A stretch of DNA of 64,000 bases from Gammaproteobacteria bacterium (GTDB lineage: Bacteria > Pseudomonadota > Gammaproteobacteria > Eutrophobiales > Eutrophobiaceae). The stretch is from NCBI GenBank assembly GCA_004297165.1, contig SCUJ01000008.1, forward strand, positions 248,001 through 312,000, written 5' to 3'. The notes below the pieces were generated by a model, which saw nothing but the letters and a program-made list of their open reading frames with translations, did no database searches and was not told the origin of the DNA. The position numbers were made by a program, and so were the translations under genes. Numbering within the stretch: the stretch's first letter is position 1; every line of letters starts with the position of its first letter. Below, one piece after another: positions 31,066 through 58,212 of this stretch.

Positions 31066-32792
31066 CAGGCCAGTTCCCGATTGTTCGAGAGATGCATCTC
31101 GTTATGGGCCTTGCCGGCGGCGATCATCGGGTAGACGTTTTCGGTCGGATCGGTCACGAAATCCATCAATACCAGCCGATCCTTCATGGCGAAGGCGTCC
31201 TTGAGCGCCTGTTCCACATCCGCGGTCTTTTCCACGCGCATGCCGACATGCCCGAAACTCTCCGCCAGCCTGACGAAATCGGGCAGGGCCTCCAGATAGG
31301 AATGGGAATAGCGCTTGCTGTAGAACATCTCCTGCCATTGCCTGACCATGCCCATGTACCTGTTGTTCAGGGTGACGATCTTCAGCGGCAGGCCATGTTG
31401 CAGACAGGTCGAGAGTTCCTGGATGCACATGACCAGGCTCGCATCCCCCGAGAAGCAGACCACCTGCTCATTGGGCAGGGCCACCTGGACGCCGATCGCG
31501 GCAGGCAGGCCGAAACCCATGGTGCCGAGGCCGCCGGAATTGATCCACCGCCGCGGTTCGTCGAATTTGTAGAACTGCGCCACCCACATCTGGTGCTGGC
31601 CCACATCCGAGGTGACATAGGCCTTGCCACCCGTCAGCTCCCAGACCTTTTCCACCACGTACTGGGGTTTGATGACCTCGCTCTTGCGGTTATAGCCCAG
31701 ACAGTTGATCCCCGCCCACGTACGGATCTGCTCCCACCAGGCCTTGAGCGCCTCCGCGTCGGGTTTCTCTTCGCCCGCTTCGATAACCGCGATCATCTCC
31801 TGCAGGACGCTCTTCACATCGCCGACGATGGGGAGATCGACCCGGACATTCTTCGAGATCGAGGCGGGGTCGATATCGATCTGCATGATGCTGGCGTGCG
31901 GACAGAATTTTTGCAGGTCCCCGGTCACCCGGTCATCGAAACGGGCACCGATGGCGATCAGCACATCGCACTGATGCATCGCCATGTTGGCCTCGTAGGT
32001 GCCGTGCATCCCGAGCATGCCGACGAACTGCGGGTCGGTGCCGGGGAAGCCGCCAAGTCCCATGAGGGTATTGGTGATGGGGAAGCCGAGCGCGCGGGTG
32101 AACCGGGTCAGTTCCACATTCGCATTGCTCAGGATGACGCCGCCGCCGGTGTAGATCATCGGCCGCTTCGCGCCGAGCAGCAATTTAACGGCCTTTTTAA
32201 TCTGCCCCGGATGCCCCTTGGTCACCGGCCGGTAGGAACGCATGTCGATAGTCTTCGGATAATCGTATTCGCACGAGGCGGCGGTGATGTCCTTGGGGAT
32301 ATCGACGACCACGGGCCCGGGACGGCCGGTGGTGGCGATATAAAAGGCCTTCTTGATCGTCAACGCAATGTCGCGCACATCCTTGATCAGGAAGTTGTGC
32401 TTGACGCAGGGCCGGGTGATGCCGACGGTATCCACCTCCTGGAAGGCGTCGTTGCCGATGAGGTTGGAGCTGACCTGGCCGGTGAACACCACCAGGGGGA
32501 TGGAATCCATGTAAGCGGTGGCGATCCCGGTCAGCGCGTTCGTGACGCCAGGCCCGGAGGTCACCAGCACCACGCCCGGCTTGCCCGTGGCGCGCGCGTA
32601 ACCGTCGGCGGCATGCGCGGCCCCCTGTTCGTGGCGCACCAGGATGTGGTTTACCGCCGTCTGCTTGAACAGGGCATCATAGATATGCAGCACCGCCCCG
32701 CCGGGGTAACCGAAGATATGCTGCACGCCTTCATCCGCGAGCGCCCGGCAGAAGATTTCCGCGCCGCGCAATATTTCTCGACTCTCACTCAC
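31065..32792 (-). CDS. ilvI: Acetolactate synthase large (catalytic) subunit
   Basis: 575 residues from the chosen start. Thiamine-diphosphate enzyme: the catalytic Glu in VRHEQGAAHAADGYARA, the FAD-domain middle region, and the TPP-binding GDASLVMCIQELST with LNNRYMG. It joins two pyruvates, or pyruvate and 2-oxobutyrate. The start is GTG at 32792 (VSESREILRG) with AGGTG about six bases upstream; a longer open frame to 32975 runs through the divergent proS promoter and into proS itself and is rejected. Followed by ilvH. Confidence 0.93.
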
Positions 32793-41240: not shown

Positions 41241-42035
41241 ATGCATCCCATGCTGAACATCGCCATCCGGGCGGCTCACGCCGCCGGCGACCATATCATA
41301 AAATACGTCGATCGCGCTCCGGACCTCGTCGTGAAAAACAAAGGGCGCAGCGACTTCGTCAGCGATGTGGACCGGCGGGCGGAAGCCATCATCATTGACA
41401 TCCTGCGCAAGGCCTATCCACAGCACGCGATCCTCGCGGAAGAGACAGGGGGACAAGGCGAGAGCGAGTTCCAGTGGCTGATCGACCCGCTGGACGGCAC
41501 CACCAATTTCCTGCACGGATTTCCCCAGTTCGCGGTCTCCATCGCGCTGAAATTCCGCGGCGGCCTGGATCAGGCGGTCGTCTATGACCCCCTGCGGCAG
41601 GAGCTCTTCACCGCGAGCAAGGGCGCAGGCGCCTACCTGAACAAAAAGCGGATTCGCGTCAGCAAACGTCGCACCCTGCAAGGCGCGCTGCTCGGCACCG
41701 GCATTCCATTCGGCGACAGCCAGGACCTGGAGCCTTTCTTCAGCACCCTGCGAGGCATGTACAGGGAAATTGCCGGGATTCGCCGGGCCGGGGCCGCCTC
41801 GCTGGATCTGGCCTATGTCGCCTGCGGGAGGCTGGACGGATTCTGGGAATTTGGACTGCATCCCTGGGACATGGCCGCCGGGGCGTTGTTGATAATCGAG
41901 GCGGGTGGATATGTGTCTGACATGCAGGGCGGCGGGGATTATCTGGAGAGTGGCAATATCTTCTGCGCCAACCCGGACCTGCATCGGGAACTGGGCGCCC
42001 TGATCAAGTCGCGATCCTCTCATACATTTCCCTGA
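41241..42035 (+). CDS. suhB: Inositol-1-monophosphatase SuhB
   Basis: 264 residues. Metal and substrate motifs: EETGG, DPLDGTTNFLHGFPQF, and WDMAAGALLIIEAGG. SuhB also works in rRNA transcription antitermination. The ATG at 41241 has GGAGT five bases upstream and gives the usual N-terminus (MHPMLNIAIRAA); the frame opens 22 codons earlier. Its last 32 bases overlap the convergent nucleotidyltransferase gene. Confidence 0.93.
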   Translation: MHPMLNIAIRAAHAAGDHIIKYVDRAPDLVVKNKGRSDFVSDVDRRAEAIIIDILRKAYPQHAILAEETGGQGESEFQWLIDPLDGTTNFLHGFPQFAVSIALKFRGGLDQAVVYDPLRQELFTASKGAGAYLNKKRIRVSKRRTLQGALLGTGIPFGDSQDLEPFFSTLRGMYREIAGIRRAGAASLDLAYVACGRLDGFWEFGLHPWDMAAGALLIIEAGGYVSDMQGGGDYLESGNIFCANPDLHRELGALIKSRSSHTFP

Positions 42036-42783
42036 CCTGAACGGCGAGCGGCGCAAGACTGCCACCCGCCTTCCCGTTCCGCATCAGCGCCAGATATTCC
42101 CGCTGGGCCTTTTCGAGGGCCTCCGGCGAGCCAATATCCCGGTGATATACCTGATTCCGCCAGGTGAAGATCCTTCCGACCAGCTGTGGCAACACCTGGG
42201 TGCTGAAATCGATCGCCTCACTACCGACGCTCTCGAGTATCCTGAATATCGAGGGCTCCAGGAGATAAACAGCGGCATTGGCAAGCGTACCGGGCGGGTC
42301 CGGTTCCTTTTCATGAAAGCCCCGGACGATTTTCTGTTCATCGAGAACAACGATGCCACAGGTGCTTGGCGAATCCGTTTCATAAACCATCATGGTCATC
42401 TCGGCCTTTGCCGGACGGCGTTTGTGGGCGCGCATGAATTCCTTCAGATCGCCAAGACACAGATTATCCGCATGGATCATGAGGATGGTCTCGTCGGCAA
42501 AGAATTTTCTGTTTCTGAGGAGCGTGCCGCCGGTATTAAGCAAGGCATCTTCATGCACTAGGGTGACCTTGCGCTGTATCGCATGCCCTTCCAGGTATTT
42601 TCGCACCAGTCCGGCGTGATGATGGGTATTGATCAGGATCGAATCGACCCCGGCGCGATCCAACGCTTCAAGCCAGAAATCCAACAATGGCCTGGCGGCG
42701 ATGGGCATGAGACATTTTGGCAGGGTGTCGGTTAATGGACGCAGTCTTTGGCCGACGCCGGCGGCGAGCAGGAGCGCTTTCAT
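42004..42783 (-). CDS. Sugar-phosphate nucleotidyltransferase
   Basis: 259 residues. The nucleotidyltransferase signature is at the N-terminus: MKALLLAAGVGQRLRPLTD with TLPKCLMPIA, and HADN as the metal-binding Asp region. The length suggests the HddC/RmlA-like group that joins a sugar-1-phosphate to NTP; the base used cannot be told. Its ATG overlaps the stop of the reversed HldE-like gene (ATGA), so the two are coupled and probably act in succession: phosphorylation, then activation. It ends the seven-gene operon that starts at 49251. Confidence 0.85.
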   Translation of the reverse strand: MKALLLAAGVGQRLRPLTDTLPKCLMPIAARPLLDFWLEALDRAGVDSILINTHHHAGLVRKYLEGHAIQRKVTLVHEDALLNTGGTLLRNRKFFADETILMIHADNLCLGDLKEFMRAHKRRPAKAEMTMMVYETDSPSTCGIVVLDEQKIVRGFHEKEPDPPGTLANAAVYLLEPSIFRILESVGSEAIDFSTQVLPQLVGRIFTWRNQVYHRDIGSPEALEKAQREYLALMRNGKAGGSLAPLAVQVREMYERIAT

Positions 42784-44288
42784 GAAGCAAATGGCCGCGC
42801 CTGCAGTATTTCCCTGCGCAATTCTTCCACAGTCAGCGGAATATTCCCCACCTTGCCCACCTGGCAGGCGGCCGCCATGGACCCGATATAAGCCGAGGTC
42901 CAGATATCCGCCCCAGCGGCCAGCGCCAGCGAGGCGCAGGTCAATAGCGCATCGCCCGCCCCTGCCACATCCCTGGGCGCATTGTTCAGTGCGGGCAATC
43001 TGTCGGTCGCGAAACCGCTCGCGTTATCCGCCCCGGCATGGGTCAAGGTCCCCTCCGCACCCAGGGTAATGAACACATTTTCCGCCCTGGCCTTCTGCCT
43101 GAGCAATTCCCCGAGCACGACCAGACCATCGGTGAAGTTTTGCAAGGCAAGGCGCGCCTCCCGCTCTGTAGGCGTGAGCAGTTTCATCGAGTGGAATCTC
43201 GACACGTCCCCTACCTGGGAAGAGGACTGACTGTCCGCGACCATCATGATCTCCCGGGCGCGGAATTCATCAATCAGTCTTGATACCATCTCGTCCGGCA
43301 GACAGCCGTAGTTGAAATCCGAAAAGATGACCAGATCCAGGTCATCGATCACCGCTGTCACGCGGTGCATTATCCGCTCCTGCAAATCCCGACTGATGGG
43401 ATTCTGGCGCAAGTGATTGACCCTGAGCAGGGTTTTTGAATTGGCACGGTATCGTTGTTTAAGTGTAGTCGGGCGCGCTTCGTCGGTAAGCAGGGTGTTT
43501 TTCACACCCGCTTTCTCTAGTTCCCGCACAGCGAATTCCGCCGTCGCGTCGGTCCCGCATACGCCGACGTAGATGACTTCCGCGCCCAGCGCCCGGGCAT
43601 GGGCCGAGACGATGCCCGCACCGCCGATGAAACGTTCCTGCATCACGGGCGTTACGACGATCGTCGGATCCTCCTGGGACATGCCCAGCGCATCGCAGGT
43701 GATGTACTCATCAATGATCAGATCGCCGAGAACGAGGGTCTTGAGCGCGCCGATCTTTTTCAAGGTATCAGCCGCCGCCGCAGTGTCTATGCCATGCCGT
43801 TGCAGATATTTTTCCGGCTGACGTATGGTCGAATAATTCAGATGCCGGAATTCATCCCGAAGGAGATCGATCGAGGAAAAACTGATATCGCCAGATGAAA
43901 ACAGCAGCTTGCCGCCATAGCCTTGCAAGGCATGAAGTTCGGGATTATCCATCCTTTCATGCTCCTTCCCCTTCACCACCACCGCGGGTCGCAGGACCCT
44001 GATGAAATCGGCGGGTTGGTCGTGCAAGATGAAAGCGTATTGCACCCAGCTGTTTGCCTTCACGCCCGCCAGACGCAGGTCTTCCGCCAGCATGACTCCT
44101 TCATGTCCGTCGGCATGCACCCCCACAACCAGATAATCGCCGCATTCCGAGGCAAAGCGCAAGAGTCGCAGGTGACCGGGGTGGACTATGTTGAAATTTC
44201 CGGAGACGAAGGTGATCCGCGCCCCCGCCTTTCTCACCGCGAGAATTTCCCGCAACGCCGTTTGCGAATCCGGATGCAGTCCCCGCAT
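42780..44288 (-). CDS. Bifunctional HldE-like protein in reversed order: nucleotidylyltransferase then PfkB kinase
   Basis: 502 residues. The N-terminal domain (about 1-150) is an RfaE2-type nucleotidylyltransferase with FVSGNFNIVHPGHL, containing the HxGH motif. The C-terminal domain (about 180-502) is an RfaE1-type PfkB kinase: VLGDLIIDEYI, TTLKQRYRA, and the DVAGAGDAL signature with the catalytic Asp. Classical HldE has the kinase first. By homology it would phosphorylate a heptose-7-phosphate or similar sugar at C1 and attach a nucleotide. No gmhA or gmhB is in the window. It is coupled to the nucleotidyltransferase downstream, and the radical SAM gene lies three bases upstream. Confidence 0.85.
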   Translation of the reverse strand: MRGLHPDSQTALREILAVRKAGARITFVSGNFNIVHPGHLRLLRFASECGDYLVVGVHADGHEGVMLAEDLRLAGVKANSWVQYAFILHDQPADFIRVLRPAVVVKGKEHERMDNPELHALQGYGGKLLFSSGDISFSSIDLLRDEFRHLNYSTIRQPEKYLQRHGIDTAAAADTLKKIGALKTLVLGDLIIDEYITCDALGMSQEDPTIVVTPVMQERFIGGAGIVSAHARALGAEVIYVGVCGTDATAEFAVRELEKAGVKNTLLTDEARPTTLKQRYRANSKTLLRVNHLRQNPISRDLQERIMHRVTAVIDDLDLVIFSDFNYGCLPDEMVSRLIDEFRAREIMMVADSQSSSQVGDVSRFHSMKLLTPTEREARLALQNFTDGLVVLGELLRQKARAENVFITLGAEGTLTHAGADNASGFATDRLPALNNAPRDVAGAGDALLTCASLALAAGADIWTSAYIGSMAAACQVGKVGNIPLTVEELRREILQARPFAS

Positions 44289-44291
44289 GGG

Positions 44292-45386
44292 TCAGATGAA
44301 ATTATCGTGCGGTTCGGGATGATCGAGCCGCCATAAATATCTGTTCACTTCGTCCATCCGGCAATTCACGCGGCACTGACTGATATCGAGATCCTTGCGG
44401 ATGAATTCAAAACTCTGGCGCCGCAACTCGCCCTCCCAGATATCCCTGAAGCCCTGTTCGTGTATGTTACCGTATCTGAATTTCTGGTTGCCCAAATAGG
44501 CGCTACAGCCATAGACGCTGCCATCCGCCATGATGTAGGCCCAGAAAAAAGGCGTTGCATAGCACTTGTCGTACAGGCGCTTTTCCTCGTTCAACTTGTG
44601 CATCGTATGCTTGCGATAAATGACGTGGAAATTCGCATCATTCAGGCTGGACAGGCGCGCATCCAGTTCGCCGAATTTCTCATAACGCAGGTTTTCGTAG
44701 GTGTGGGAGATGCCGTAAAGGCTCTGCGTATAGGGCTTGACCACAAGATAATCCACGCCGATTGCTTTCAATCTGACGCCGAGGTCGTATACCTCATGGG
44801 CGTTTTCCGGCAAGAGCAGGATTTGTCCGCCGATTGTACAGCGGTGGCGATTGGCGTTTCTCAGCCTGACAGCCTCGGCGAAATTATCCATCACCCGCTC
44901 GAAATCAGCCGCCTTGGTGCGATGAATCGCGGCATAGGTCTCCGGGCTGCCCGCATTGACGCTGGTCTTGATCCAGCTGCAATTGCGTACAAATGCCTCA
45001 ATATTTCTCCGCGTGAACGGCACCATGTTGGTCGTCATCGAAGTGTCTATGCCGCAACTGGTGCAGTGATCGAGGATCTCCGGGAGCGGTTTCCACAGGG
45101 AGGGTTCGCCTTCCCCGGCGAACATGATGCTCCGTACGCCAAGCGCGCCCATCTCGGTCAACCGTTCCTTCAGCTTGTCGGCATCGAGGCTGCGGTTCTG
45201 ATAACCGATGTAATCCACCGAGCAAAAGACGCAACGGTGGTTACAGGCCCCCATGGGCGAGAGCTCCATATACACCGGATAAATGGTTTTCGCCGTTGCC
45301 CAGTCATGCCTGCCCTGCAACCAGCGCGACGTCCGCTCGGGGTGATACTGCAGCTTGTGACTATCTATAGCATATTCATCAGCCAT
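44292..45386 (-). CDS. Radical SAM/SPASM domain protein A
   Basis: 364 residues. The radical SAM cluster motif CNHRCVFC lies about 51 residues from the start, with MFAGEGEPSL as the SAM-binding GGEP-like turn. A C-terminal SPASM-type cysteine set follows (CYATPFFWAYIMADGSVYGCSAYLG, cut at DGSVYGCSAYLG; then CRVNCRMDE) for auxiliary iron-sulfur clusters. The ATG at 45386 has AGGAG seven bases upstream. It overlaps the upstream epimerase gene by eight bases. In a sugar operon it might carry out a radical dehydration, epimerisation or dehydrogenation, but the substrate is unknown. Confidence 0.85.
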   Translation of the reverse strand: MADEYAIDSHKLQYHPERTSRWLQGRHDWATAKTIYPVYMELSPMGACNHRCVFCSVDYIGYQNRSLDADKLKERLTEMGALGVRSIMFAGEGEPSLWKPLPEILDHCTSCGIDTSMTTNMVPFTRRNIEAFVRNCSWIKTSVNAGSPETYAAIHRTKAADFERVMDNFAEAVRLRNANRHRCTIGGQILLLPENAHEVYDLGVRLKAIGVDYLVVKPYTQSLYGISHTYENLRYEKFGELDARLSSLNDANFHVIYRKHTMHKLNEEKRLYDKCYATPFFWAYIMADGSVYGCSAYLGNQKFRYGNIHEQGFRDIWEGELRRQSFEFIRKDLDISQCRVNCRMDEVNRYLWRLDHPEPHDNFI

Positions 45387-46197
45387 TCGGATTCTCCTCG
45401 CGGGACAGCCTTTGCCGGCACCAGGTTCGCAGGATCTCGCGTACATCGCCCGGTTGATAATCGTAATCTCTTACCGCCTTGTCAATCGACAGGTTAAAGA
45501 AATGTCGGCGCGCATCCGCGCAATGGACCTGCGAATTGGATTGGAGACATGCCTTCAGCAGCATAACTATCGAGGCGAGCGAGAGCTCGGCGCGACAGGC
45601 CAGATTGATGACGTCGTAACCGGGATGGATCCGCACATGGCGAAGAAACCCCGCCAGTGTGGGGATATCCACGAAGTTATTGTATTCTCTCTCCGCATTG
45701 AATATCTCAATATCCTCTCCATGTCGCAATTTTTCGAAGGTGCGGGACATGAAGTTGCTCATCTTGCCGAGTTCGAGCACTGCGGGCAACCTTACGACAA
45801 GTGTGGGGATGCCCGTGGTCTCGCATAATTTTTCCCCGATAAGTTTCGTCAGCCCATACAACCCCGGCCCTTGCAGCGGGGCTGACTCGGCGATCTGCTC
45901 GCAATCCTGTTTGCCATAAACCGAGACGCTGGAAATAAAGATAATCTCATCGACCTTGTGTTCGCGCGCGGCGTGCAACACCTGGCGCAGATAATCCAGA
46001 TTTGCCGCCAGCAACCCGGCGGGATCGCCCTCATCCGCGCGCCCGGCCGAGTGCAATAACCTGACTTTTTCATGAGACAGGGGCCGTGACTCCGTGAGAT
46101 CGTCCAGCCTTAATACGGGCTGGCCGGAGAGCGCATAGCTCTGGCATAAGCCGGTTCCCACCTCTCCGCCCTGGCCGGTGATAACGAGTATGGGCAT
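45379..46197 (-). CDS. NAD-dependent epimerase/dehydratase family protein A
   Basis: 272 residues. Extended SDR fold: the glycine motif is ITGQGGEVG in place of the usual GxxGxxG, and the Ser and Tyr-Lys catalytic set is seen in FISSVSVYG and GLYGLTKLIGEKL. It probably modifies a nucleotide-activated sugar. The ATG at 46197 is chosen as it opens the first strand (MPILVITGQ). It follows the E1 beta gene after ten bases and overlaps radical SAM gene A by eight bases. The atypical cofactor loop deserves a check. Confidence 0.8.
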   Translation of the reverse strand: MPILVITGQGGEVGTGLCQSYALSGQPVLRLDDLTESRPLSHEKVRLLHSAGRADEGDPAGLLAANLDYLRQVLHAAREHKVDEIIFISSVSVYGKQDCEQIAESAPLQGPGLYGLTKLIGEKLCETTGIPTLVVRLPAVLELGKMSNFMSRTFEKLRHGEDIEIFNAEREYNNFVDIPTLAGFLRHVRIHPGYDVINLACRAELSLASIVMLLKACLQSNSQVHCADARRHFFNLSIDKAVRDYDYQPGDVREILRTWCRQRLSREENPNG

Positions 46198-46207
46198 GGC
46201 CGCCCGC

Positions 46208-47266
46208 TCAGAAGGGACCGTTGAACCAGTCACCGGGGACATCATGGGGAAACTTGCATTGCGCCGCCAGCGCGCCTGGATTCACGTCCCGTCCCAGCAT
46301 CTCCCCCACCTTCGCGGCGATGTCCGGCGCCCGTGGGTAATAATTCCTGGTAAGGGCTGGGCTTGCGGGCGATGGCGCATCCGGAAACGTCATCCGCTCG
46401 GGGGCCTGTTTGAGACCGGCGAACAGATTGCTTGCGACCAGGGCGATGATCTCTCCCGCCACGGATCCGGTCAGGTGCGCCGAATCCAGCACCAGGAGCC
46501 TGCCAGTGGTTTGCACCGATCGGAATATGGTTTCCCGATCGAGCGGTTTGATCGAACGCAGGTCGATCACCGAGACAGAAATCCCTTGATCCCGCAGAAA
46601 ACGCGCGGCATGCCAGGCTTCGAGCGTCAGGTATGAGGTGGCGACAATCGTGAGATCCTGTCCCGCCAGCAGCTCTTTGGCCTGCCCGAACGGTATGCGA
46701 TAGGGCGAATCAGGGACTTGCGCTCTGCTTCCGTGCAGCCAGCGGTGTTCAATGAACACCACGGGGTTGGGATCGAATATGCTCGCGAGCAACAAGCCTT
46801 TGGCGTCATACGGATTTGTGGGCATCACCACCTTGAGTCCGGGGATATGCGCAAACCAGGCGTGCAGATTCTGCGAATGGGTCGGCCCCTGACCCCAACC
46901 CTGCCCGGTAATCAGCCGGATCGTAATTCCCGCCGCCCGTCCTCCGCCGAACATGTAATGCCATTTGGCGGCATTATTCACCAGCTGATCCAGGGCAAGG
47001 AGAAAAAAATCGGTGCGCTGGTGAACCATGACCGGCCGCAGGCCCAGAAGCGATGCGCCGACTGCGATCCCGGTCATCGCATTTTCCGAGGTGGGCATGT
47101 CGAACACCCGATCCGGGCCGAAGCGTTCCTTGAGGCCCAAGGTGGTGCCAAAGATATTTTTCGGATCCCCTACGCCAAGCCCGAAACAAATTACGTCGGG
47201 GTCAACCGTCATGGCTGTCGCAAGGGCCTCATTAACGGCCTCGCAGAAATTCAATTCCCGACCCAT
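46208..47266 (-). CDS. TPP-dependent dehydrogenase E1 component, beta subunit
   Basis: 352 residues, matching the pyruvate/acetoin dehydrogenase E1 beta family: a pyrimidine-binding transketolase domain (MTVDPDVICFGLGVGD..., then PTSENAMTGIAVGASLLG, where the Glu activates TPP) and a C-terminal transketolase domain (YLTLEAWHAARFLRD, SVIDLRSIKPLD). It overlaps the alpha gene by 16 bases. No E2 lipoyl acyltransferase or E3 gene is near, so a complete oxidative complex is not encoded here. A carboligase role, transferring a two-carbon unit from a keto acid to a sugar, is one inference. Confidence 0.87.
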   Translation of the reverse strand: MGRELNFCEAVNEALATAMTVDPDVICFGLGVGDPKNIFGTTLGLKERFGPDRVFDMPTSENAMTGIAVGASLLGLRPVMVHQRTDFFLLALDQLVNNAAKWHYMFGGGRAAGITIRLITGQGWGQGPTHSQNLHAWFAHIPGLKVVMPTNPYDAKGLLLASIFDPNPVVFIEHRWLHGSRAQVPDSPYRIPFGQAKELLAGQDLTIVATSYLTLEAWHAARFLRDQGISVSVIDLRSIKPLDRETIFRSVQTTGRLLVLDSAHLTGSVAGEIIALVASNLFAGLKQAPERMTFPDAPSPASPALTRNYYPRAPDIAAKVGEMLGRDVNPGALAAQCKFPHDVPGDWFNGPF

Positions 47267-48258
47267 GGTATCCCCACAGAATCATCAGCCCGATAAACGC
47301 CCTCCGCCAGCGTATCCGGATCGGGAAACGGCGAATCCTCAGCGAACCGGAAGGCATCCTCAATCTCGTCCCGGATGCCTCGCTCCATGGTCGCGAGCCC
47401 GACGGAGGTAATGCAGCGCTCGTCGAGCAACCTCTCCTGCAGGAGTCGCAACGGGTCATGCGCATGCCAATAGTCAACGAGCCTTGCATCACGGTAACCC
47501 AGATCGTCGTCATGATTGGGACCGCAATGCTCGCGCCACCGAAAGGTCTTGATCTCGATGAAGGCCGGGAGGCATTCTTCCCGCGCCGCCCGCATCCGCT
47601 CCGCCACCTGCGCGTGCAGCGCCAGGACATCCACCGAATCCACGCAGCCGCTCCTCAAGCCGATCGCCGCGGCCAGGCTGCTCAATTCTCTGTTCTCGGG
47701 TTGCCTGACGGAGAGTGGCGAGTAGACGGAATAGCCGTTGTTCTCGCAAATGAAGACGACCGGGAGCCGGCGCAAAACCGCGAAATTCGCGGTCTCATAG
47801 AACACGCCCTCTTCCACCGCGCCGTCGCCGAGGAATATGCAGGCGATGTTCTCGCTGTGCCGCATGCGCAAGGCCAGACCCAGACCGGCGCCGACCGGGA
47901 TGGAATTCGCGACGATGGCGGTGCTGCCCATAAAACCGGCGTCGATATCAACCAGATGCATCGAACCGCCCCGGCCCCGGCTGCATCCGGTTTCCTTGCC
48001 GTACAATTCCGCGATCAGGGCCCGGAGGGAACCGCCCTTGGCGAGATAGTGGGCATGCGCCCGATGGCTGCTGACGACGAGATCGTCCATGCGTAATAAC
48101 GATCCCAACACCGCCGCCGGCGCCTCCTGTCCGATGGAGAGATGAGTGGGACAGCGCATCCTGCCTTCCGGATACCTGTCCGCGATTGCCTCCTCGACCA
48201 TACGGATGCGTTTCATCTGCGCGAGTAGCGCCAGCGCGATTTCCGGCGTTGTTTCCAT
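47251..48258 (-). CDS. TPP-dependent dehydrogenase E1 component, alpha subunit
   Basis: 335 residues. TPP-binding motif GDGAVEEG...ENNGYSVYSP, HLSIGQEAPAA and SRGRGGSMHLVD are typical of acetoin/pyruvate dehydrogenase E1 alpha. AAGGAG lies six bases before the ATG at 48258, so that start is preferred to the ATG directly before it. It directly follows the epimerase gene (the TAG abuts the first ATG) and overlaps the beta gene by 16 bases. It forms an alpha2beta2 E1 with the beta subunit; substrate unknown. Confidence 0.88.
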   Translation of the reverse strand: METTPEIALALLAQMKRIRMVEEAIADRYPEGRMRCPTHLSIGQEAPAAVLGSLLRMDDLVVSSHRAHAHYLAKGGSLRALIAELYGKETGCSRGRGGSMHLVDIDAGFMGSTAIVANSIPVGAGLGLALRMRHSENIACIFLGDGAVEEGVFYETANFAVLRRLPVVFICENNGYSVYSPLSVRQPENRELSSLAAAIGLRSGCVDSVDVLALHAQVAERMRAAREECLPAFIEIKTFRWREHCGPNHDDDLGYRDARLVDYWHAHDPLRLLQERLLDERCITSVGLATMERGIRDEIEDAFRFAEDSPFPDPDTLAEGVYRADDSVGIPWVGN

Positions 48259-48261
48259 CAT

Positions 48262-49251
48262 CTACTCCTTGTGCTGATAACTATCAGGCATGGAGGACAA
48301 TCTGGCGAGATTTTGCAGATACCATTCAATGGTCAGGTCCAGTCCCCGATCTAGATTCAGCGCAGCCTGCCAGCCCAATTGCTCCCGTGCCCGCACGGTG
48401 GAGAGCAGATAGGCGCTGTCCGCGCCGGGCCGGGCCGCAGACTCCCGGATGAAATCCTCTGTGCGCACCCTGAGTTTGTCGCAGATTGCGCTCACGAGTT
48501 GTCTGATGCTCACCACTTCCGCCGTAGCCAGATGGAAGATCTCTCCGCTGTATCCGCTCTTCAGCAGGAGCAGCATTGCTTCGCAGACATCCTGTATATG
48601 AATAAAGGATCGGCGGGCGTAACCCCCGCCGTGCAATGCAATGGGTACGCCTTTTTTAATCGCGAGGATCGTCCGCGGAATGATCCGGTAAAGCGGCTGC
48701 CCAGGGCCGTATACATTCGCGGCCCGGGTGGTGATTGCCGGGAAGCCATATTGCCGGTGATAGATGCGCAGATTCATGTCGCACGCCGCCTTGGACACCG
48801 CATAGGGCGTGCTCGGCCGGAGCGGGGCATCTTCAGACACCACGTCAACGCAGTCGCCGTACACCTCCGGCGTGGAGATCTGCATGAAACATTTCAAATG
48901 GCTGTTATTACGCAATCTCTCGTGCAGTGCCGTTGCGGAAAGAAAATTGGTTCGATACCAGTGTTCGGGGCGATCCCAGCTCTCCGCCACCATGCCCTGT
49001 GCCGCGAAGTTCACGATATATTCCGGTTTGAACCCTTCTATGACCGCCATGATACGGTCCAGATCGCGGTTCAGATCCAGTTGATGGAATTCGAACGCCG
49101 GACGGCTCTGCCACCGGTACGGCAGGAAGAGGGCATCCGGTTCCGCGGATCGGCTGATGCCCACGACTTCGAATCCATGGGTTAGGGCTTGAGCGGCGAA
49201 ATGCGCTCCGGAAAAGGAGTTGCTGCCCAGTATCAGTAGTTTCTCAGCCAT
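48262..49251 (-). CDS. NAD-dependent epimerase/dehydratase family protein B
   Basis: 329 residues, extended SDR similar to GDP-mannose or dTDP-glucose 4,6-dehydratases: LILGSNSFSGAHFA as the NAD loop, STPEVYGD, TPYAVSKAACD with the catalytic Tyr and Lys, and RRSFIHIQDVCEAM. It probably acts first in the operon on a nucleotide-sugar, making a 4-keto or inverted product. The gene is the first of the - strand operon ending at 42004. The first glycine loop GSNSFSG deviates from GxxGxxG. Confidence 0.87.
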   Translation of the reverse strand: MAEKLLILGSNSFSGAHFAAQALTHGFEVVGISRSAEPDALFLPYRWQSRPAFEFHQLDLNRDLDRIMAVIEGFKPEYIVNFAAQGMVAESWDRPEHWYRTNFLSATALHERLRNNSHLKCFMQISTPEVYGDCVDVVSEDAPLRPSTPYAVSKAACDMNLRIYHRQYGFPAITTRAANVYGPGQPLYRIIPRTILAIKKGVPIALHGGGYARRSFIHIQDVCEAMLLLLKSGYSGEIFHLATAEVVSIRQLVSAICDKLRVRTEDFIRESAARPGADSAYLLSTVRAREQLGWQAALNLDRGLDLTIEWYLQNLARLSSMPDSYQHKE

Positions 49252-49644: not shown

Positions 49645-50304
49645 ATGCAACGGGAAATAGATCTGATGTTGAATTATCCACGGACAAAACGGGATCTCGA
49701 GGGCCGGGCGGCGAATCGGACCGAGGCAGACAGGATGATTGCGCGCCGCTTCGGCAAGGAATTTTTCGATGGCGACAGAAAAACCGGTTACGGTGGATTC
49801 AACTATCATCCCCGCTTCTGGCAACCGGTGATACCCGATTTTCAGAAGTTCTATCGTCTGGAAAAATCGAGCAGGATCCTGGACGTTGGTTGCGCCAAGG
49901 GCTTCATGCTGTATGACTTCACGCAATTGATCCCCGGCATAAGCATAGCCGGGGTCGACATATCGGGATATGCGATCAGCCACGCCAAGGAGGAGATCCG
50001 TCCGTGGGTGCAGGTGGGAGACGCCAGAGCCCTGCCCTATGAAGACAATTCCTTCGACCTGGTGATATCCATCACCACCGTGCACAACCTTGATCGGGAT
50101 GACTGCTCTCTGGCCCTGCGGGAGATCGAACGGGTGAGCCGCAAGGATAAATTCATCACCGTGGACGCCTACCGCACTCCCACCGAAAAACAGCATATGG
50201 ACATGTGGAATCTCACGGCGCTTACTTACATGAGCACGACGGAGTGGAAGGAGTTTTTTGCCGCGGCAGGTTATACCGGCGATTATTACTGGTTCATCCC
50301 CTGA
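49645..50304 (+). CDS. Class I SAM-dependent methyltransferase (type 11)
   Basis: 219 residues. SAM motif I ILDVGCAKGFML (about 78-89), motif II GVDISGYAI, and LPYEDNSFDLVIS with motif VHNL. A WHPRFW-like basic region precedes it (GGFNYHPRFWQPVI). The protein probably methylates a sugar or aglycone; the acceptor is unknown. It is first in a three-gene + strand operon (methyltransferase, dehydrogenase, glycosyltransferase), with a gap of 16 bases to the next gene. A later ATG at 49669 is a possible start. Confidence 0.83.
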   Translation: MQREIDLMLNYPRTKRDLEGRAANRTEADRMIARRFGKEFFDGDRKTGYGGFNYHPRFWQPVIPDFQKFYRLEKSSRILDVGCAKGFMLYDFTQLIPGISIAGVDISGYAISHAKEEIRPWVQVGDARALPYEDNSFDLVISITTVHNLDRDDCSLALREIERVSRKDKFITVDAYRTPTEKQHMDMWNLTALTYMSTTEWKEFFAAAGYTGDYYWFIP

Positions 50305-50320
50305 GTCGATCCCCAAGCAA

Positions 50321-51361
50321 ATGAAGGCAGCCGTACTCGTGGCGCCGAAGGAACCCCTCTGGGTGACTGACGGCATCGAAGTGCCTCTGCCCGGCAGAGG
50401 TCAGGTGGTGGTGCGCATCGCATATACCGGACTCTGCCACAGTCAACTGATGGAAGTTTCAGGTCTGCGTGGTCCCGATCCCTGGCTGCCGCACCTTCTC
50501 GGTCATGAAGCGACAGGGAGAGTTGAAATGACGGGTGCTGACGTAACGAAGGTGAAGCCCGGAGATGCGGTCATCCTGAGCTGGATACGAGGCGTTGGTC
50601 TTGAGGCCCCCGGCGCGAGATACCGGCGTGGCGACATGATAATCAACTCAGGCGCAGTCACTACCTTCAGCGAGTATACCGTCGTCAGCGAGAACCGTTG
50701 CACTCCCCTGCCACACAAGCTGCCGATGTCCATCGGCAGTCTGTTGGGCTGCGCGGTCATGACCGGCGCTGGCGCCGTCATGAACGCCATGCAACCTGCC
50801 GTCAACAGCAGCATAGTCATCTTTGGCTTGGGCGGCATCGGCATGAGCGCCCTGATGGCCGCCAGGCGCAGCCGGCCTGCGGCGCTCGTGGCTGTGGACG
50901 TGGTTGACTCCAAGCTCAGCCAGGCCGACCAGTTGGGGGCGACACATACCGTCAATGCCGTGAGCGAGGACCCGGTCGCGGCAATCCGGAAGATCTGCGC
51001 CGGCGGCGCCGATTTCGCCCTGGACGCCTCTGGCCAGACAGCCGTGATTGAACAGGCCTTCGCCAGCGTCCGCCCCCATGGCGGCTTGTGCGTCTTCGCA
51101 AGCCATCCGGCGGCCGGCGAAGTAATCAGACTGGATCCCTTCGATCTCATCTGCGGGAAACAGATCCGCGGAACCTGGGGCGGCGATTGCAAACCGGATC
51201 GGGATATACCCCTGCTTGCCGATTTATATGTAAAAAATGAATTACCGCTCGACAGGCTGATATCGGTCGAATACACACTCGACGAAATCAATTCCGCTAT
51301 GGCGGATCTGCGCGCCGGCAAGGTCACCAGGGCGTTGATTCGGGTCAATCCTGATGTTTGA
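50321..51361 (+). CDS. Medium-chain (alcohol-type) dehydrogenase
   Basis: 346 residues from the ATG at 50321. The catalytic zinc set is seen: Cys in GLCHSQLMEVSG, then LGHEATGRVEM; the Rossmann loop is GLGGIGMSAL. The four cysteines of the structural zinc lobe are missing: that segment reads SWIRGVGLEAPGARYRRGDM. It resembles enzymes that oxidise sugar alcohols or nucleotide-sugar hydroxyls. It lies between a methyltransferase and a glycosyltransferase on the same strand. Confidence 0.83.
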   Translation: MKAAVLVAPKEPLWVTDGIEVPLPGRGQVVVRIAYTGLCHSQLMEVSGLRGPDPWLPHLLGHEATGRVEMTGADVTKVKPGDAVILSWIRGVGLEAPGARYRRGDMIINSGAVTTFSEYTVVSENRCTPLPHKLPMSIGSLLGCAVMTGAGAVMNAMQPAVNSSIVIFGLGGIGMSALMAARRSRPAALVAVDVVDSKLSQADQLGATHTVNAVSEDPVAAIRKICAGGADFALDASGQTAVIEQAFASVRPHGGLCVFASHPAAGEVIRLDPFDLICGKQIRGTWGGDCKPDRDIPLLADLYVKNELPLDRLISVEYTLDEINSAMADLRAGKVTRALIRVNPDV

Positions 51362-53628: not shown

Positions 53629-54744
53629 TCAGACAAACGGATCGGGGGCGGGCCTGGAATCCACTGTTAAGCCAATCGGAATTACCGACTTATACAGCGA
53701 CTTCAGGATTTGATTGGTTTTCCCGTGCGGACAGGAGGGACAGGCATCATAACTGAGCCCCCGGTAAAACCCTCTGCGCAACGGATCGTTCCAGAATTCG
53801 GAGAAGTCCCGATCCAGGATATTACCCATCACATAGCGTTTGTCGTAGCGCGTATAGCAACACGGATAAACATCTCCGTTTGCCGCGATGTAAGTGGAGT
53901 GGTTGGAGTAAAAACAGACGAGGTCCGGATCGCCCAATTTGCGGACATCTTCCAACCGGTCCTCGTTAACATGAACCTGGAATGTGGCGGAATCGTAGTC
54001 CCGTTTTGCGCGCAGAATGTCATGCAGCGTCTGACCCAGGTAACTGAGCGGCGCCGCCTCGCGGTCGAAGGGGGTATCGGGACGAAAGGCAATGCTGCTC
54101 ACGCCAAGACCGGCCGCCAACGCCGCCGCGGGCGCGGCATCCATGGCATTGCTCTCATGCACCACAAAACTGGCGTTGAGCCGGGATCGATCCCGCATTT
54201 CCAGTAATATCCGTTTTACATTTTCCTGACTGGTTACAAAGCTCTCCCCGGCGCGATTTCCTCGTGGCCTGTGCACCCGCATATACACGTCTTCTGTGCC
54301 GCCGTTCATGCTCCAGCGCACCCATGAACAATGTGCAAGTTCCTGGATGGTTTCGTCCTTCAGAGGCATGGCCAGATTCGAAGTGACGCCCGATTTGATA
54401 CCGGCTTCCCTGATACGGCGGAGAACCTCCGCCATATGGGGATACACCAGCGGGTCGCCGGCCCCGGTGAACGAGATTGCCTTGATGCCAAGGGTTGCAA
54501 ACTCATCAATCAGGCGCAGCAACCGCTCCCTGGGCAGTTGCCGCTTCCCGGTCATATCCACTCGTGACTCTATGGCCTGATGCCTCTCGGGGTCATGCCA
54601 CACGCAAAATTGGCAGCGAAAGTTACATACCTCCGATGGTTCGATACGCACATGGAGCGGCGGACACGCAGCGCCATCGCCTGCAAGAATGGCCTTGACG
54701 GTATCGCTATGCTCGAGCAACCGGATATTGCTGTACAGCCCCAT
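53629..54744 (-). CDS. Radical SAM/SPASM domain protein B
   Basis: 371 residues. The cluster motif CNFRCQFC (about 40), FTGAGDPLVYP as the SAM-binding turn, and a SPASM-like C-terminal set: GDVYPCCYTRYDKRYVMGN and CPSCPHG. The ATG at 54744 (MGLYSNIRLLE) is taken as the start. It follows radical SAM gene C after seven bases on the same strand. Substrate unknown; it may modify a sugar or a lipid carrier group of the locus. Confidence 0.85.
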   Translation of the reverse strand: MGLYSNIRLLEHSDTVKAILAGDGAACPPLHVRIEPSEVCNFRCQFCVWHDPERHQAIESRVDMTGKRQLPRERLLRLIDEFATLGIKAISFTGAGDPLVYPHMAEVLRRIREAGIKSGVTSNLAMPLKDETIQELAHCSWVRWSMNGGTEDVYMRVHRPRGNRAGESFVTSQENVKRILLEMRDRSRLNASFVVHESNAMDAAPAAALAAGLGVSSIAFRPDTPFDREAAPLSYLGQTLHDILRAKRDYDSATFQVHVNEDRLEDVRKLGDPDLVCFYSNHSTYIAANGDVYPCCYTRYDKRYVMGNILDRDFSEFWNDPLRRGFYRGLSYDACPSCPHGKTNQILKSLYKSVIPIGLTVDSRPAPDPFV

Positions 54745-54751
54745 GGACAGA

Positions 54752-55867
54752 CTACCCGCCCGCCGCAACGGCTTGCGACTGACCTTGGGCGGACGCGGAT
54801 AATGCGGGTTTAGGCCTCAGCCAGCCACAGCGATGACAAGCAGGCACAGTACCGTTTTCGCTTATTGTCTTGCGGAACCGGACGAATGCCTCGCCGCCGA
54901 TAATATCCGCAAGCGATCGCTCCCTGACATTGCCCATGCTTACAGCAAGACAGGGGAAGAGATGCCCGTCCGCGTTGATATGCACGCTGCTCCAGGGGAA
55001 TCTGCAGGCAAGGTAATCCTGCGGCCTGAAAGCTCGGGTGTTGATATACCTGATGTCCGGCAGATGTTCCGCGGACTGCAAGTCGCCGATGGGAGGATGG
55101 AGATAGGATCGTTTGCCGTTAACGACTGCGTAACGCCGCACCTTCTCCAGTTGCTCCAGGATTAGATCCATCCTTTCATATATGTGAGGTTCAGGCGCGA
55201 GGAATATGTCATCGGGATCGAACATGGTATCCGCATGTTGCAGTGTGGAACCCTTCAGAAATTGGAAGGCATGGCTGTCGCAATGGAGTTCTTCCACACA
55301 GAACCTGTAGATATCGAACAGATCCCCGGCATTCTCGTCGAGGACGACCGTCTTGATGTCGAAGAGAGTCTCAGAATGAAGCGCATCCCGCTTTTCCACC
55401 AGGATGCGGGCCATGATTGTGAGATGCTGCCACTGCTCCGATTTAAGCAGGCGATTATGATTGCCGACATCGTCAACCGAAATCGATATCACCTTCAGCC
55501 GCGGTCTCGCCAAAAGTTGATTGATCCACTCTTCGTCGAGCAGGATGCCGTTGGTGATCAGGTTGCAGTCATGTTTGACGGTTATAGCATCCAGTATCTC
55601 CAGAAATCCCTTGTAGACCAGCGGTTCACCCCCGGTAAGCGTGACCCTTGCATAGTCGGGCAACTGCCCGGTCAGGCGCAACCAGTCATCCTTCAACATC
55701 GGTGCATGACTTTTATGTTTGTACTGAAAACAGAATGGACAGCGCAGATTGCACAGGTTGGTAAGGATGTACACGTAACGGGCAGGCAACATCAGTTCCG
55801 CCGAGTTGAAGATCCGCTCGGTCATTTGCTCATGCCGCGCGTGGATGATTACATCTTTATCGCTCAT
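54752..55867 (-). CDS. Radical SAM/SPASM domain protein C
   Basis: 371 residues. The motif CNLRCPFC lies at about residue 39, LTGGEPLVYKG is the SAM-binding loop and the C-terminus has the twitch/SPASM cysteines (CRFPWSSVHINADGHLFPCLAV, cut at DGHLFPCLAV; then CHRCGW). Only 30% or so visual similarity to protein B outside the motifs, so they are not recent duplicates. It starts the operon that continues with protein B. A 137-base gap separates it from the bi-domain oxidoreductase; I see no clear promoter there. Confidence 0.85.
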   Translation of the reverse strand: MSDKDVIIHARHEQMTERIFNSAELMLPARYVYILTNLCNLRCPFCFQYKHKSHAPMLKDDWLRLTGQLPDYARVTLTGGEPLVYKGFLEILDAITVKHDCNLITNGILLDEEWINQLLARPRLKVISISVDDVGNHNRLLKSEQWQHLTIMARILVEKRDALHSETLFDIKTVVLDENAGDLFDIYRFCVEELHCDSHAFQFLKGSTLQHADTMFDPDDIFLAPEPHIYERMDLILEQLEKVRRYAVVNGKRSYLHPPIGDLQSAEHLPDIRYINTRAFRPQDYLACRFPWSSVHINADGHLFPCLAVSMGNVRERSLADIIGGEAFVRFRKTISENGTVPACHRCGWLRPKPALSASAQGQSQAVAAGG

Positions 55868-56004: not shown

Positions 56005-58212
56005 CTATTTTCCCCTCGCTGTCTCCGGGCGCGTTGATGGAGAATCAACGGGGCTGGTCTCCGAGGCAGAAACGGCCGCAGTCGCGAGGACCGCAATCCT
56101 GGATGATTGAAGAAATCCATTTGCGTCCACGGGTTGCCCGCTGCGGATGGCATTGAGGAAAGATTCGATCTCCCCGGCATGCCCTTTATCCCTGGTAAAC
56201 CACAGCCGTTTGCTCGATGTCAGCAGCCCCCTGGAGAATTCCAGTTTCCTGAAATCGGTGAGCACGGCGACGCGGTTGTCGCAAAAGACCTCGCAGCGCT
56301 CGGCAGGGTAGGCCTTGCTGCCATTGGAGAGATAGACGATATGGGCGATGGAACCGTCAGCATAACGCAGACTGATATGGATGTTGTCCGCCGACTGGAA
56401 CCCAAGGTTGCCGGCCCCAACCGGAGTCGCGGAGACGCTTAACGCCGGTTCGCCGATCAACCAGTTGCAGAAATCGATCTGATGACAGGCCTCGCCGAGG
56501 ATCACGCCCCCGCCCTGCCGCGGGTCATGCAGCCAGTGTTCCGGCGGCCGGTAACCCACGTTGACCGTGTATTGAATTGATGCCGGGCCCGCGCGGCGGC
56601 CGAACCAATCCCGCATGCGCACCGCGAGTCGGGCGTAGCGTCGATTGAAACCCACCATCAATAGCCGATCGCCGCCGGCCAGCGCCTGTTCAACCCGCTC
56701 CAGTTCTCCGAGCGTGAGGGCCAGCGGCTTCTCCACGAACACATGCTTGCCGCTCTCGAGCGCCACCGCCGCATATCCGGCATGGGTGTCATGACGCGTG
56801 AGGATGAACACGCAATCGGTCTCCTTATCCTTGAAGATCGTCTCGGGGTCCGTGGCGCAGGATTCGAATCCGTATTTCCTGCCCAGGGCGGCGGCGCGCA
56901 CGCCGGTGGCGGAACAGATGGAGCGCAGGTGGAGATTGGGCTGCTTGCAGAGCAGCGGCAGAAATTCGTTCGTGGCAAAACTCCCCGCGCCCAGGACCGC
57001 GACGCCGATCCGGCCGCTGGCGGAGGTGGCCGGTAGTTTCGTCCGCAGTGGAATCGATCTCGCAGGCGTGGTTGCTCCGGCATCCGGTTCGGGATACTTG
57101 AGCAGGATTGCGAGACTCCGTTCACTGCTGGCGCCGCTGATCAGGGCGAAGGCCTGGTCGGCCTGCTCAACGGGAAACTCATGGGTGATCATCCCGCTGA
57201 AATTTATCACCCCCGACGCCAGAGACTCCAGCACCGCCGCCATGTTCCGGCCTTCCGTCCATCGTACATAGCCATAGGGATAGTCCTCGCCCTTCAGTTC
57301 GTAGGCCTGATCGCCGGTGCCGGGGCCGTAAGCCATCGAGGTGCAGAGCTCCAGTTCCTTGAACAGATAGGTCTCGCGCGGCGCCTCCAGCCGCGTCCGG
57401 CCCACCGCGACCACGCGTCCCTTGATGCGGGCAAGCTCCCCCGCCAGCGCCACGGGCCCGTTGTCATCCGTAGCCGCGGTGATGATGACGGCATCCGCCC
57501 CTTTGCCGGAGGTCCAGGCCATGACCCGCTCCTTCAGATTGCCCGCCCCCAGGACCTCCCCATCGCCAGAGCGTCCGGATTTGAGGAACGCGACCCGCTC
57601 GGGATCGATATCGATGCCGAAGACCCGGCAGCCGGCCGCCTTCAACAATTGCGCGGTAATGAGTCCGACCAGACCGAGACCAATCAGGACGACGTTATCT
57701 CCCAGTTGTGCCCTGGCCACGCGCACGCTCTGGAGCGCAATCGCGCCGAGCGTGGTAAAGGCGGCTTCGCGCGTCGCCGCGCCTTCCGGGATGCGCACGC
57801 ACAGATTCTTCGGGACACAGACGATCTCGGCATGGTTCGCGTAACCAGCGCCGCCGCAGGCTACGCGGTCGCCGATCTCCACATGATCCACTTGCCTGCC
57901 CTTGCCGATCACGACACCGGCGGTTGAATAGCCTAAGACTATCGGCATATCCAGGGTGCGCATGGCCGCGTTCCAGGCCACCGCGAGACCTTGGGTCTTG
58001 ACCACCTGGAGGACCTTGCGCACCTGTTCCGGCCGCGCCCTGGCCTTGCCGAGCAGACTCATCTTCCCCAGTTTTACCGTGCCGCCTTCCGTGCCGCTGC
58101 TGATAAGGGAATAGCAGTTGCGGACCAGGACGAAATTTTCACCGGCGACCGGCGCCGGGACGTCTTCCACGTAACACTCTCCGGTCCGGAAATTTTCCAA
58201 CACCTGTTTCAT
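56005..58212 (-). CDS. Bi-domain oxidoreductase: medium-chain dehydrogenase fused to Gfo/Idh/MocA domain
   Basis: 735 residues. The N-terminal 370 are a zinc-type medium-chain dehydrogenase (VLGYSTAGVVIGKG, VACGGAGYANHAE, the NAD loop VLIGLGLVGLITAQ). After a linker, residues about 395-735 are a Gfo/Idh/MocA dehydrogenase (GVAVLGAGSFATNEFL, and the EKPLALTL motif). The fusion is known in polysaccharide loci, often next to alpha/alpha-barrel proteins, and probably carries out two linked oxidations on a sugar. A methyltransferase gene lies 21 bases upstream and the radical SAM genes downstream. Confidence 0.87.
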   Translation of the reverse strand: MKQVLENFRTGECYVEDVPAPVAGENFVLVRNCYSLISSGTEGGTVKLGKMSLLGKARARPEQVRKVLQVVKTQGLAVAWNAAMRTLDMPIVLGYSTAGVVIGKGRQVDHVEIGDRVACGGAGYANHAEIVCVPKNLCVRIPEGAATREAAFTTLGAIALQSVRVARAQLGDNVVLIGLGLVGLITAQLLKAAGCRVFGIDIDPERVAFLKSGRSGDGEVLGAGNLKERVMAWTSGKGADAVIITAATDDNGPVALAGELARIKGRVVAVGRTRLEAPRETYLFKELELCTSMAYGPGTGDQAYELKGEDYPYGYVRWTEGRNMAAVLESLASGVINFSGMITHEFPVEQADQAFALISGASSERSLAILLKYPEPDAGATTPARSIPLRTKLPATSASGRIGVAVLGAGSFATNEFLPLLCKQPNLHLRSICSATGVRAAALGRKYGFESCATDPETIFKDKETDCVFILTRHDTHAGYAAVALESGKHVFVEKPLALTLGELERVEQALAGGDRLLMVGFNRRYARLAVRMRDWFGRRAGPASIQYTVNVGYRPPEHWLHDPRQGGGVILGEACHQIDFCNWLIGEPALSVSATPVGAGNLGFQSADNIHISLRYADGSIAHIVYLSNGSKAYPAERCEVFCDNRVAVLTDFRKLEFSRGLLTSSKRLWFTRDKGHAGEIESFLNAIRSGQPVDANGFLQSSRIAVLATAAVSASETSPVDSPSTRPETARGK

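Follow-up and report, generated by a model that had tools for sequence, protein, structure and literature searches.

The closest described relative of the protein studied here is HldE (RfaE), which combines a heptose-7-phosphate kinase with a heptose-1-phosphate adenylyltransferase. A 64-kb stretch of a gammaproteobacterial genome (the window; positions 248,001 to 312,000 of contig SCUJ01000008.1, assembly GCA_004297165.1) encodes a protein, hereafter H, in which homologues of both domains are present and the GAGD and HxGH motifs, K277 and R279 are kept. H differs from HldE in its reversed domain order, in scoring below the NCBIfam cut-offs for both domains, in forming a separate clade, in its short nucleotide loop, and in coexisting with a canonical HldE in nearly all other genomes examined. 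We found that this reversed HldE is the first gene of the operon associated with bradyrhizose and that it belongs to a large coherent family, whose members are probably best seen as activating enzymes for branched surface sugars of higher carbon number.

Bradyrhizose is a ten-carbon bicyclic sugar and the sole O-antigen component of a Bradyrhizobium strain, with hemiacetal closures from positions 4, 5, and 9 (PMC9912281). Busset et al. (2016) described an 11-gene cluster that includes gdh, is syntenic in photosynthetic strains, and lies ~44 kb from rfaL; disruption of gdh abolished the bradyrhizose O-antigen (PMC4743980). In the accessible text of that paper, the genes for bradyrhizose synthesis are given as unknown, and only this cluster is pointed to. 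This cluster can now be assigned a definable set of enzymes, the first of which is a domain-swapped HldE. Like that operon, the window carries the reversed HldE, a nucleotidyltransferase (NDPT), a short-chain dehydrogenase/reductase (SDR1), a Zn-dependent dehydrogenase (ADH), and a methyltransferase (MT); unlike it, the window has a radical SAM protein and an E1 alpha/beta pair in place of the split transketolase, and searches there found neither SIS nor HAD nor APH.

Two further groups of systems invite comparison. According to the accessible part of a 2025 review (PMC12247030), three superfamilies of thiamine diphosphate (ThDP) enzymes are known to take ketone acceptors, and all are linked to or proposed for C-branched sugars. 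These are the YerE-type decarboxylases of branched lipopolysaccharide (LPS) sugars, the alpha-keto acid dehydrogenases 2 of E1 alpha/beta type, found in ~120 clusters mainly for antibiotics, and the transketolases, with 13 putative split-gene members that all come from Streptomycetes and are untested. As in YerE-like C-4 branching of yersiniose and erwiniose and in the antibiotic pathways of the other two superfamilies, H loci have a ThDP enzyme clustered together with a dehydratase-like SDR. However, that part of the review mentions no HldE-type kinase for these systems, and it places the transketolases and alpha-keto acid dehydrogenases 2 mainly in secondary metabolism. The GDP-D-glycero-D-manno-heptose cassette (GmhA-HddA-GmhB-HddC) shares the logic of isomerase, anomeric kinase, phosphatase, and nucleotidyltransferase, but the kinase of the apparent cassette on contig 13 of the window genome reads as GHMP-type, whereas H has a PfkB-type kinase fused to a transferase.

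H has the two HldE domains in reversed order

The gene and its domains are as follows.
42780..44288, minus strand: H, domain-swapped HldE-like protein, 502 residues, ATG start (open reading frame (ORF), Pfam, NCBIfam, AlphaFold2 model)
43794..44288, minus strand: N-terminal nucleotidyltransferase domain of H, about residues 1-165, with HxGH at residues 36-39 (about 44172-44183) (Pfam, NCBIfam)
42780..43775, minus strand: C-terminal HldE-type PfkB kinase domain of H, about residues 172-502, with GAGD at residues 443-446 (about 42951-42962) (Pfam, NCBIfam, fold)

A first reading of the gene, made from the sequence only, had placed the nucleotidylyltransferase at the N terminus and the PfkB kinase at the C terminus, opposite to HldE. 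Pfam, which assigns CTP_transf_like to residues 28-109 and PfkB to residues 185-483, bore this out. So did NCBIfam, which matched rfaE_dom_II to residues 17-130 (54 bits) and rfaE_dom_I to residues 177-493 (198 bits), both far below the curated cut-offs of 181.5 (TIGR02199) and 345 (TIGR02198). Comparison with E. coli HldE, in which the kinase precedes the transferase, confirmed that the order in H is truly reversed; because this order is kept across many loci, it is not an artefact of assembly or frame. The AlphaFold2 model of H had a mean predicted local distance difference test score of 90.5 and a predicted template modeling score of 0.71. A structure comparison that covered the kinase half (residues 166-492) returned HldA as the top entry (Z 37.8, root mean square deviation 2.5 over 311 aligned residues); the highest-scoring entry other than HldA reached Z 32.4. 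The N-terminal fold was assigned from sequence. An RfaE_N domain family with N-terminal placement in CDD would make the architecture known to databases.

The bradyrhizose-associated operon begins with a reversed HldE

All 13 Bradyrhizobium genomes used for operon content (B. erythrophlei, locus L069, and 12 others; loci L121-L125, the partial L126, and G568 and G605, two carriers of a 53% identical H, were left out) encode the same 11 genes in one order: H-NDPT-SDR-SIS-SDR1-TktN-TktC-ADH-HAD-APH-MT. The annealing parts of the gdh primers published for strain ORS285 matched SDR1, the fifth gene, with 0 mismatches each in genome G533 (L130), spanning 382 bp. Across the 13 genomes they matched SDR1 with 0-5 mismatches; among ten shuffles of the forward primer, the best had 6 in any locus. 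In G533, the rfaL primers also matched with 0 mismatches, the distance between gdh and rfaL was 45.0 kb, and a canonical RfaE match ended ~0.6 kb before the rfaL primer site, in agreement with the published account (PMC4743980). Six other genomes had a Wzy_C match on the same contig; with the best such match taken as rfaL, the distance was 34-42 kb in five and 17.4 kb in G539. Thus, the primer matches, the gdh-rfaL spacing, and the 11-gene order identify the reversed HldE as gene 1 of the bradyrhizose-associated operon.

We then scored 242 Bradyrhizobium genomes for H and for reaction-center genes. H was present in 21 and a reaction center in 25, with 11 genomes having both, 10 H only, and 14 a reaction center only. 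The association (11/25 versus 10/217; Fisher p 2.7e-7) is strong but far from complete. Nine reaction-center genomes with an H of the 53-54% type all hold the full operon, and two hold only an H of the 31-32% type; the full operon also occurs without a reaction center in G369, G404, G455, and G470. A pattern noticed post hoc, in which 8/8 genomes with a 314-residue-frame reaction-center match carry H, was set aside in favor of the whole table. Bradyrhizobium has a second reversed-HldE subtype, 31-33% identical to the window H, in five genomes (L121-L125), two of which have reaction-center genes.

The window carries a variant gene module

Around H, the window encodes the following genes.
42004..42783, minus strand: NDPT, sugar-1-phosphate nucleotidyltransferase, 259 residues, overlapping H by 4 bases (Pfam NTP_transferase)
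44292..45446, minus strand: radical SAM/SPASM protein with a CNHRCVFC motif; relatives in 16/80 loci (family scan, locus comparison)
45379..46245, minus strand: SDR2, NAD-dependent epimerase/dehydratase family, distantly related (28% identity over 158 residues) to the SDR encoded by gene 3 in the Bradyrhizobium operon
46208..47266, minus strand: E1 beta, Transket_pyr and Transketolase_C, one half of a ThDP enzyme (Pfam, NCBIfam)
47251..48261, minus strand: E1 alpha, E1_dh, the other half of the ThDP enzyme, with a GDG..N motif at residue 145 (Pfam, NCBIfam)
48262..49251, minus strand: SDR1, 4,6-dehydratase-like SDR (STPEVYG, YAVSK), 48% identical to B. erythrophlei gene 5, the gdh homologue
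49645..50304, plus strand: MT, methyltransferase, divergent, sharing 44% identity with operon gene 11 of Bradyrhizobium
50258..51361, plus strand: ADH, Zn-dependent dehydrogenase, sharing 43% identity with operon gene 8 of Bradyrhizobium

SDR1, E1 alpha, E1 beta, SDR2, the radical SAM protein, H, and NDPT form a minus-strand run from 49251 to 42004; MT and ADH are transcribed divergently from it. Identity to the operon proteins of B. erythrophlei is 43-53% for H, NDPT, SDR1, ADH, and MT of the window. The E1 alpha and E1 beta pair, with its ThDP motif and no adjacent E2, fits the alpha-keto acid dehydrogenase 2 type. An acetolactate-synthase-like match at 31113-32741 (30% identity), 9 kb off, was not counted as part of the module.

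Reversed HldE forms a widespread family

In the class to which the window belongs, 10 of 369 genomes, the window genome counted, have a relative of H (E <= 1e-30), and all ten alignments cover both domains. A scan of the genome collection found at least 357 stretches encoding a relative (E <= 1e-3), of which the best 80 were kept; our locus counts rest on these. In at least 79 of these, the match to H includes residues of both domains, some loci being clipped at contig ends. L105, matched at residues 4-222 only, had no H match past the filter and was left out, so that counts of H are given out of 79 loci. By record title, the loci belong to various Proteobacteria, Acidobacteria, Nitrospirae, Omnitrophota, Lentisphaerae, Chlorobium, Prochlorococcus, Actinomycetota, and one archaeon of the Thermoplasmata, with the reservation that many loci are metagenome bins whose taxonomic labels are uncertain. 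A protein search of plasmid records with H gave no match at 1e-30.

We built one tree per domain from 89 reversed and 21 canonical proteins. In both, a single branch parts the reversed from the canonical forms, with a support of 1.0 for the kinase and 0.998 for the transferase. The data fit the view that the reversed forms are one old family rather than the product of recent HldE shuffling.

Gene partners of H include three kinds of ThDP enzyme

An NDPT-like gene adjoins H on the same strand in 65 of the 79 loci (61 downstream, 4 upstream; median gap, 13 bp) and lies 0.4-2.4 kb away in 5 more; no same-strand NDPT was found in 9/79 loci, some of them at contig ends. The adjacent nucleotidyltransferase gene to which the first reading drew attention is therefore a real and conserved partner. 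Among the 80 loci, the other families were SDR1 (34), MT (34), SDRc4 (31), ADH (30), SIS (29), TktN (26), TktC (25), E1 alpha (21), E1 beta (19), HAD17 (18), APH (18), radical SAM (16), GmhB-like HAD (11), and acetolactate-synthase-like (9). The same enzyme set, or variants of it, is thus found in many other bacteria. All 11 families of the bradyrhizose-associated operon are present in L099, L091, L044, L060, and L092, titled Prochlorococcus, Herbaspirillum, Gammaproteobacteria, Kiloniellales, and Rhodospirillaceae.

A ThDP enzyme of some kind accompanies H in 47/79 loci and in 30 of the 41 with full flanks (>9 kb on both sides of H). Among 20 control loci around RmlB, only one has such an enzyme (Fisher p 2.9e-7 against 30/41), although this control is weak: its queries were drawn from H loci, it comes from the window's class only while the H loci span many groups, and 3/20 control loci are <14 kb. 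On this comparison, we rejected chance clustering of H with ThDP enzymes. The three kinds found beside H (E1 alpha/beta, split transketolase, and acetolactate-synthase-like) correspond to the three ketone-accepting superfamilies. The example protein of the third kind is acetolactate-synthase-like by NCBIfam at 360 bits, below the cut-off of 538, and the label YerE-like is applied to this kind by analogy. If the correspondence is right, enzymes of the E1 and split-transketolase kinds also serve surface polysaccharides in Gram-negative bacteria, beyond what the accessible part of the review lists (PMC12247030). HAD17 accompanies TktN in 16 of the 18 loci that have it and occurs in 0/21 loci with E1 alpha. 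SIS showed no clear link with E1 alpha (p 0.11), and radical SAM none with E1 alpha (p 0.75) or TktN (p 0.14).

The SIS proteins of these operons (n = 30) have H180 in 28 and D65 in 28, at catalytic-site positions of GmhA. The GmhA beside the GHMP-like kinase on contig 13 of the window genome also has H180 and D65, and the E. coli protein has E65.

Two Rhodopseudomonas loci (L034 and L035) group an E1 alpha/beta pair and a ThDP enzyme of the acetolactate-synthase-like kind with the reversed HldE. A C-branched sugar called ropiose has been reported from R. palustris, with RhopE as the assumed enzyme (PMC12247030).

Kinase residues are kept but the transferase loop is short

An alignment with E. 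coli HldE and 20 further canonical HldE proteins shows that the kinase of H retains G222-G223, K277, R279, D440, G443, G445, and D446. It also has family-wide changes at sites that are 95-100% conserved in canonical HldE: R to G at 202, N to I at 226, N to H at 230, K to Y at 327, PK to SQ at 353-354, and T to N at 482. The transferase domain of the reversed forms keeps both HxGH histidines (87/87), R72 (89/89), G107 (89/89), and K106 (78/89). By contrast, the loop that matches residues 375-394 of E. coli HldE has 13-19 residues in the 89 reversed forms (13-15 in 72) against 20 in 21/21 canonical proteins; no lysine is left in this loop in 55/89, the window H among them, whereas all 21 canonical proteins have one. 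At the position of Phe143 of HldC, the canonical forms have I (10), F (6), or Y (3 of 21), and the reversed forms have G in 84/89. In HldC, Lys69 of the KG motif, whose counterpart falls in the shortened loop, contacts the nucleotide phosphate and Phe143 stacks ATP (PMC7993394, from the accessible text). The earlier view that both active sites look intact thus holds for the kinase residues and for HxGH, R72, and K106-G107 of the transferase but not for its loop.

H is very unlikely to be the LPS-core heptose enzyme

Canonical HldE scores over the TIGR02198 cut-off in 20 of the 21 other genomes scanned that carry a reversed HldE; the sole carrier without it is an assembly of 520 contigs with 90% completeness. 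In the window genome (98.95% complete), no canonical HldE kinase was found, and H is its only HldE-type kinase. There was also no HldC over cut-off and no HldC-type match except H, and the search for HldD gave two TIGR02197 matches of 117 and 89 bits, neither over 274.6. Genes for gmhA and gmhB are absent near H but present elsewhere in this genome. On contig 13 (L016, 5791-9281), a nucleotidyltransferase-HAD fusion (642 residues), a GHMP-kinase-like ORF, and GmhA stand in a row, which resembles a GDP-D-glycero-D-manno-heptose cassette whose HddC and GmhB are joined in one protein. Another strong match to the GmhA family (C2:366984) was rejected as gmhA, being of DiaA type with K and N at GmhA positions E65 and H180; its neighbors resemble RsmI, LppC, and YraN genes.

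A circularly permuted but otherwise ordinary HldE, making ADP-heptose for the LPS core, would agree with H being the only HldE-type kinase of the window genome. The canonical HldE that accompanies H in the other carriers, the lack of an HldC or HldD over cut-off in the window genome, the split in both domain trees, and the different operon all speak against it, and we rejected this explanation as highly improbable. Because of the 20 carriers with both enzymes, and because the surface-sugar operon that contains H has a counterpart in Bradyrhizobium linked to bradyrhizose, H is very unlikely to be the core HldE, and reversed proteins should not be annotated as such. The sequence-only reading, which had doubted a role in the LPS core on the grounds of the adjacent nucleotidyltransferase gene and the absence of gmhA and gmhB, was supported in this doubt, but the absence of these two genes holds only for the vicinity of H. 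Its further suggestion, that H acts on another sugar, is better put as another pathway: with the HldE-type kinase residues kept, and with a GmhA-like isomerase that has catalytic-site residues encoded in related operons, a heptose phosphate may still be the substrate.

Proposed role of H and alternative explanations

We consider it reasonably probable that H phosphorylates position 1 of a heptose-7-phosphate-like sugar, and perhaps nucleotidylates it, on the way to a branched higher-carbon surface sugar. In this pathway, in which we infer the substrate, the order of steps, the carbon donor, the product, and all enzyme activities, the kinase domain would act on C1 of a phosphorylated sugar, probably heptose-7-phosphate or a close analogue. 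The N-terminal transferase of H, the co-transcribed NDPT, or both would then yield the nucleotide-activated sugar. SDR1 would form a 4-keto-6-deoxy sugar, and the ThDP enzyme (E1 alpha/beta in the window; a split transketolase or an acetolactate-synthase/YerE-like enzyme in relatives) would add a two-carbon unit to the ketone to give a C-branched, higher-carbon product. Attack of a ThDP-bound acyl anion on the C4 ketone would leave a tertiary alcohol with a new branch. This agrees with the bradyrhizose closures at positions 4, 5, and 9 (PMC9912281), which suggest that C4 of bradyrhizose carries two carbon branches. ADH, MT, SDR, and radical SAM enzymes would complete the sugar. In photosynthetic Bradyrhizobium, the same module is the bradyrhizose-tied operon, and the window holds a variant, probably for a related, different sugar. 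The HldE-type kinase and the GmhA-like SIS, with H180 and D65 in 28/30 each, suggest that the pathway starts from a heptose.

Alternatively, H might act as a kinase only, its N-terminal domain being degenerate or a regulatory relic and the adjacent NDPT performing all nucleotidyl transfer. The loop of 13-15 residues, its frequent lack of lysine, the contacts made by Lys69 and Phe143 in HldC (PMC7993394), and the NDPT beside H in 65/79 loci are in line with this. However, if the domain were dead, loss of HxGH could be expected in a family this broad, and the motif is kept along with R72, G107, and, in most proteins, K106, so that we regard this explanation as rather unlikely. We are similarly doubtful that H activates a substrate other than a heptose, be it another sugar phosphate, a polyol, or an acid. 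The family-wide changes in the kinase and the lack of SIS in the window and in 51/80 loci would suit such a substrate, but the kinase is nearest to HldA/HldE by both sequence and fold, and a GmhA-like SIS occurs in 29/80 loci and a GmhB-like HAD in 11/80. For the window, the E1 alpha/beta pair could be an ordinary pyruvate dehydrogenase (PDH) lying near H incidentally, as its highest NCBIfam scores are to PDH E1 families. Both scores fall under the PDH cut-offs, no E2 was found among the ten region proteins scanned, and E1 alpha and E1 beta occur together with H in 19/79 loci, which makes this explanation very improbable.

Several observations weigh against H as the activating enzyme of branched surface sugars or against the extension of this role to the window. 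Transferase activity of H is doubtful, because the loop is shortened in every reversed form and lysine-free in 55/89. The gdh mutation was called possibly polar by its authors (PMC4743980), 14/25 reaction-center genomes lack H and 10/217 genomes without a reaction center have it, SIS is found in just 29/80 loci, and 11/41 full-flank loci have no ThDP enzyme. In the open literature, with the terms searched, we found no paper describing H and no report of H mutated or assayed. In the window, only 5 of the 11 Bradyrhizobium operon families are present (H, NDPT, SDR1, ADH, and MT), and the gdh primers do not match (8 and 6 mismatches, like shuffled primers). E1 alpha/beta stands there in place of the split transketolase, and no separate SIS, HAD, APH, TktN, TktC, or SDRc4 gene was found in the 64 kb (E 1e-15, 50% coverage). 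Because the split transketolase is replaced and SIS, HAD17, and APH were not found, the product of the window module is probably a related sugar and not bradyrhizose.

With H placed in the operon, direct tests become possible of the sugar from which the pathway starts, of the step that branches the carbon chain, and of how widely such sugars occur. A bolder and rather unlikely proposal is that H marks an unnamed branched-sugar pathway that spans phyla, with a heptose start (SIS, H, a phosphatase, and NDPT), a 4-ketone made by SDR1, and a two-carbon unit added by an enzyme of any of the three ThDP superfamilies. If true, the Bradyrhizobium route to bradyrhizose would sum to ten carbons as C7 + C2 + C1 (methyl), by arithmetic alone, and the synthesis of bradyrhizose-like sugars would be expected from genomes labeled Prochlorococcus and Herbaspirillum, among others.

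Other genes in the polysaccharide region of the window

At 53629-55867, two neighboring ORFs of this region look like further radical SAM/SPASM proteins; the first (53629-54768) is 24% identical to the radical SAM protein of the H operon. A 735-residue ORF at 56005-58212 looks like a Zn-dehydrogenase fused to a Gfo/Idh-type oxidoreductase.

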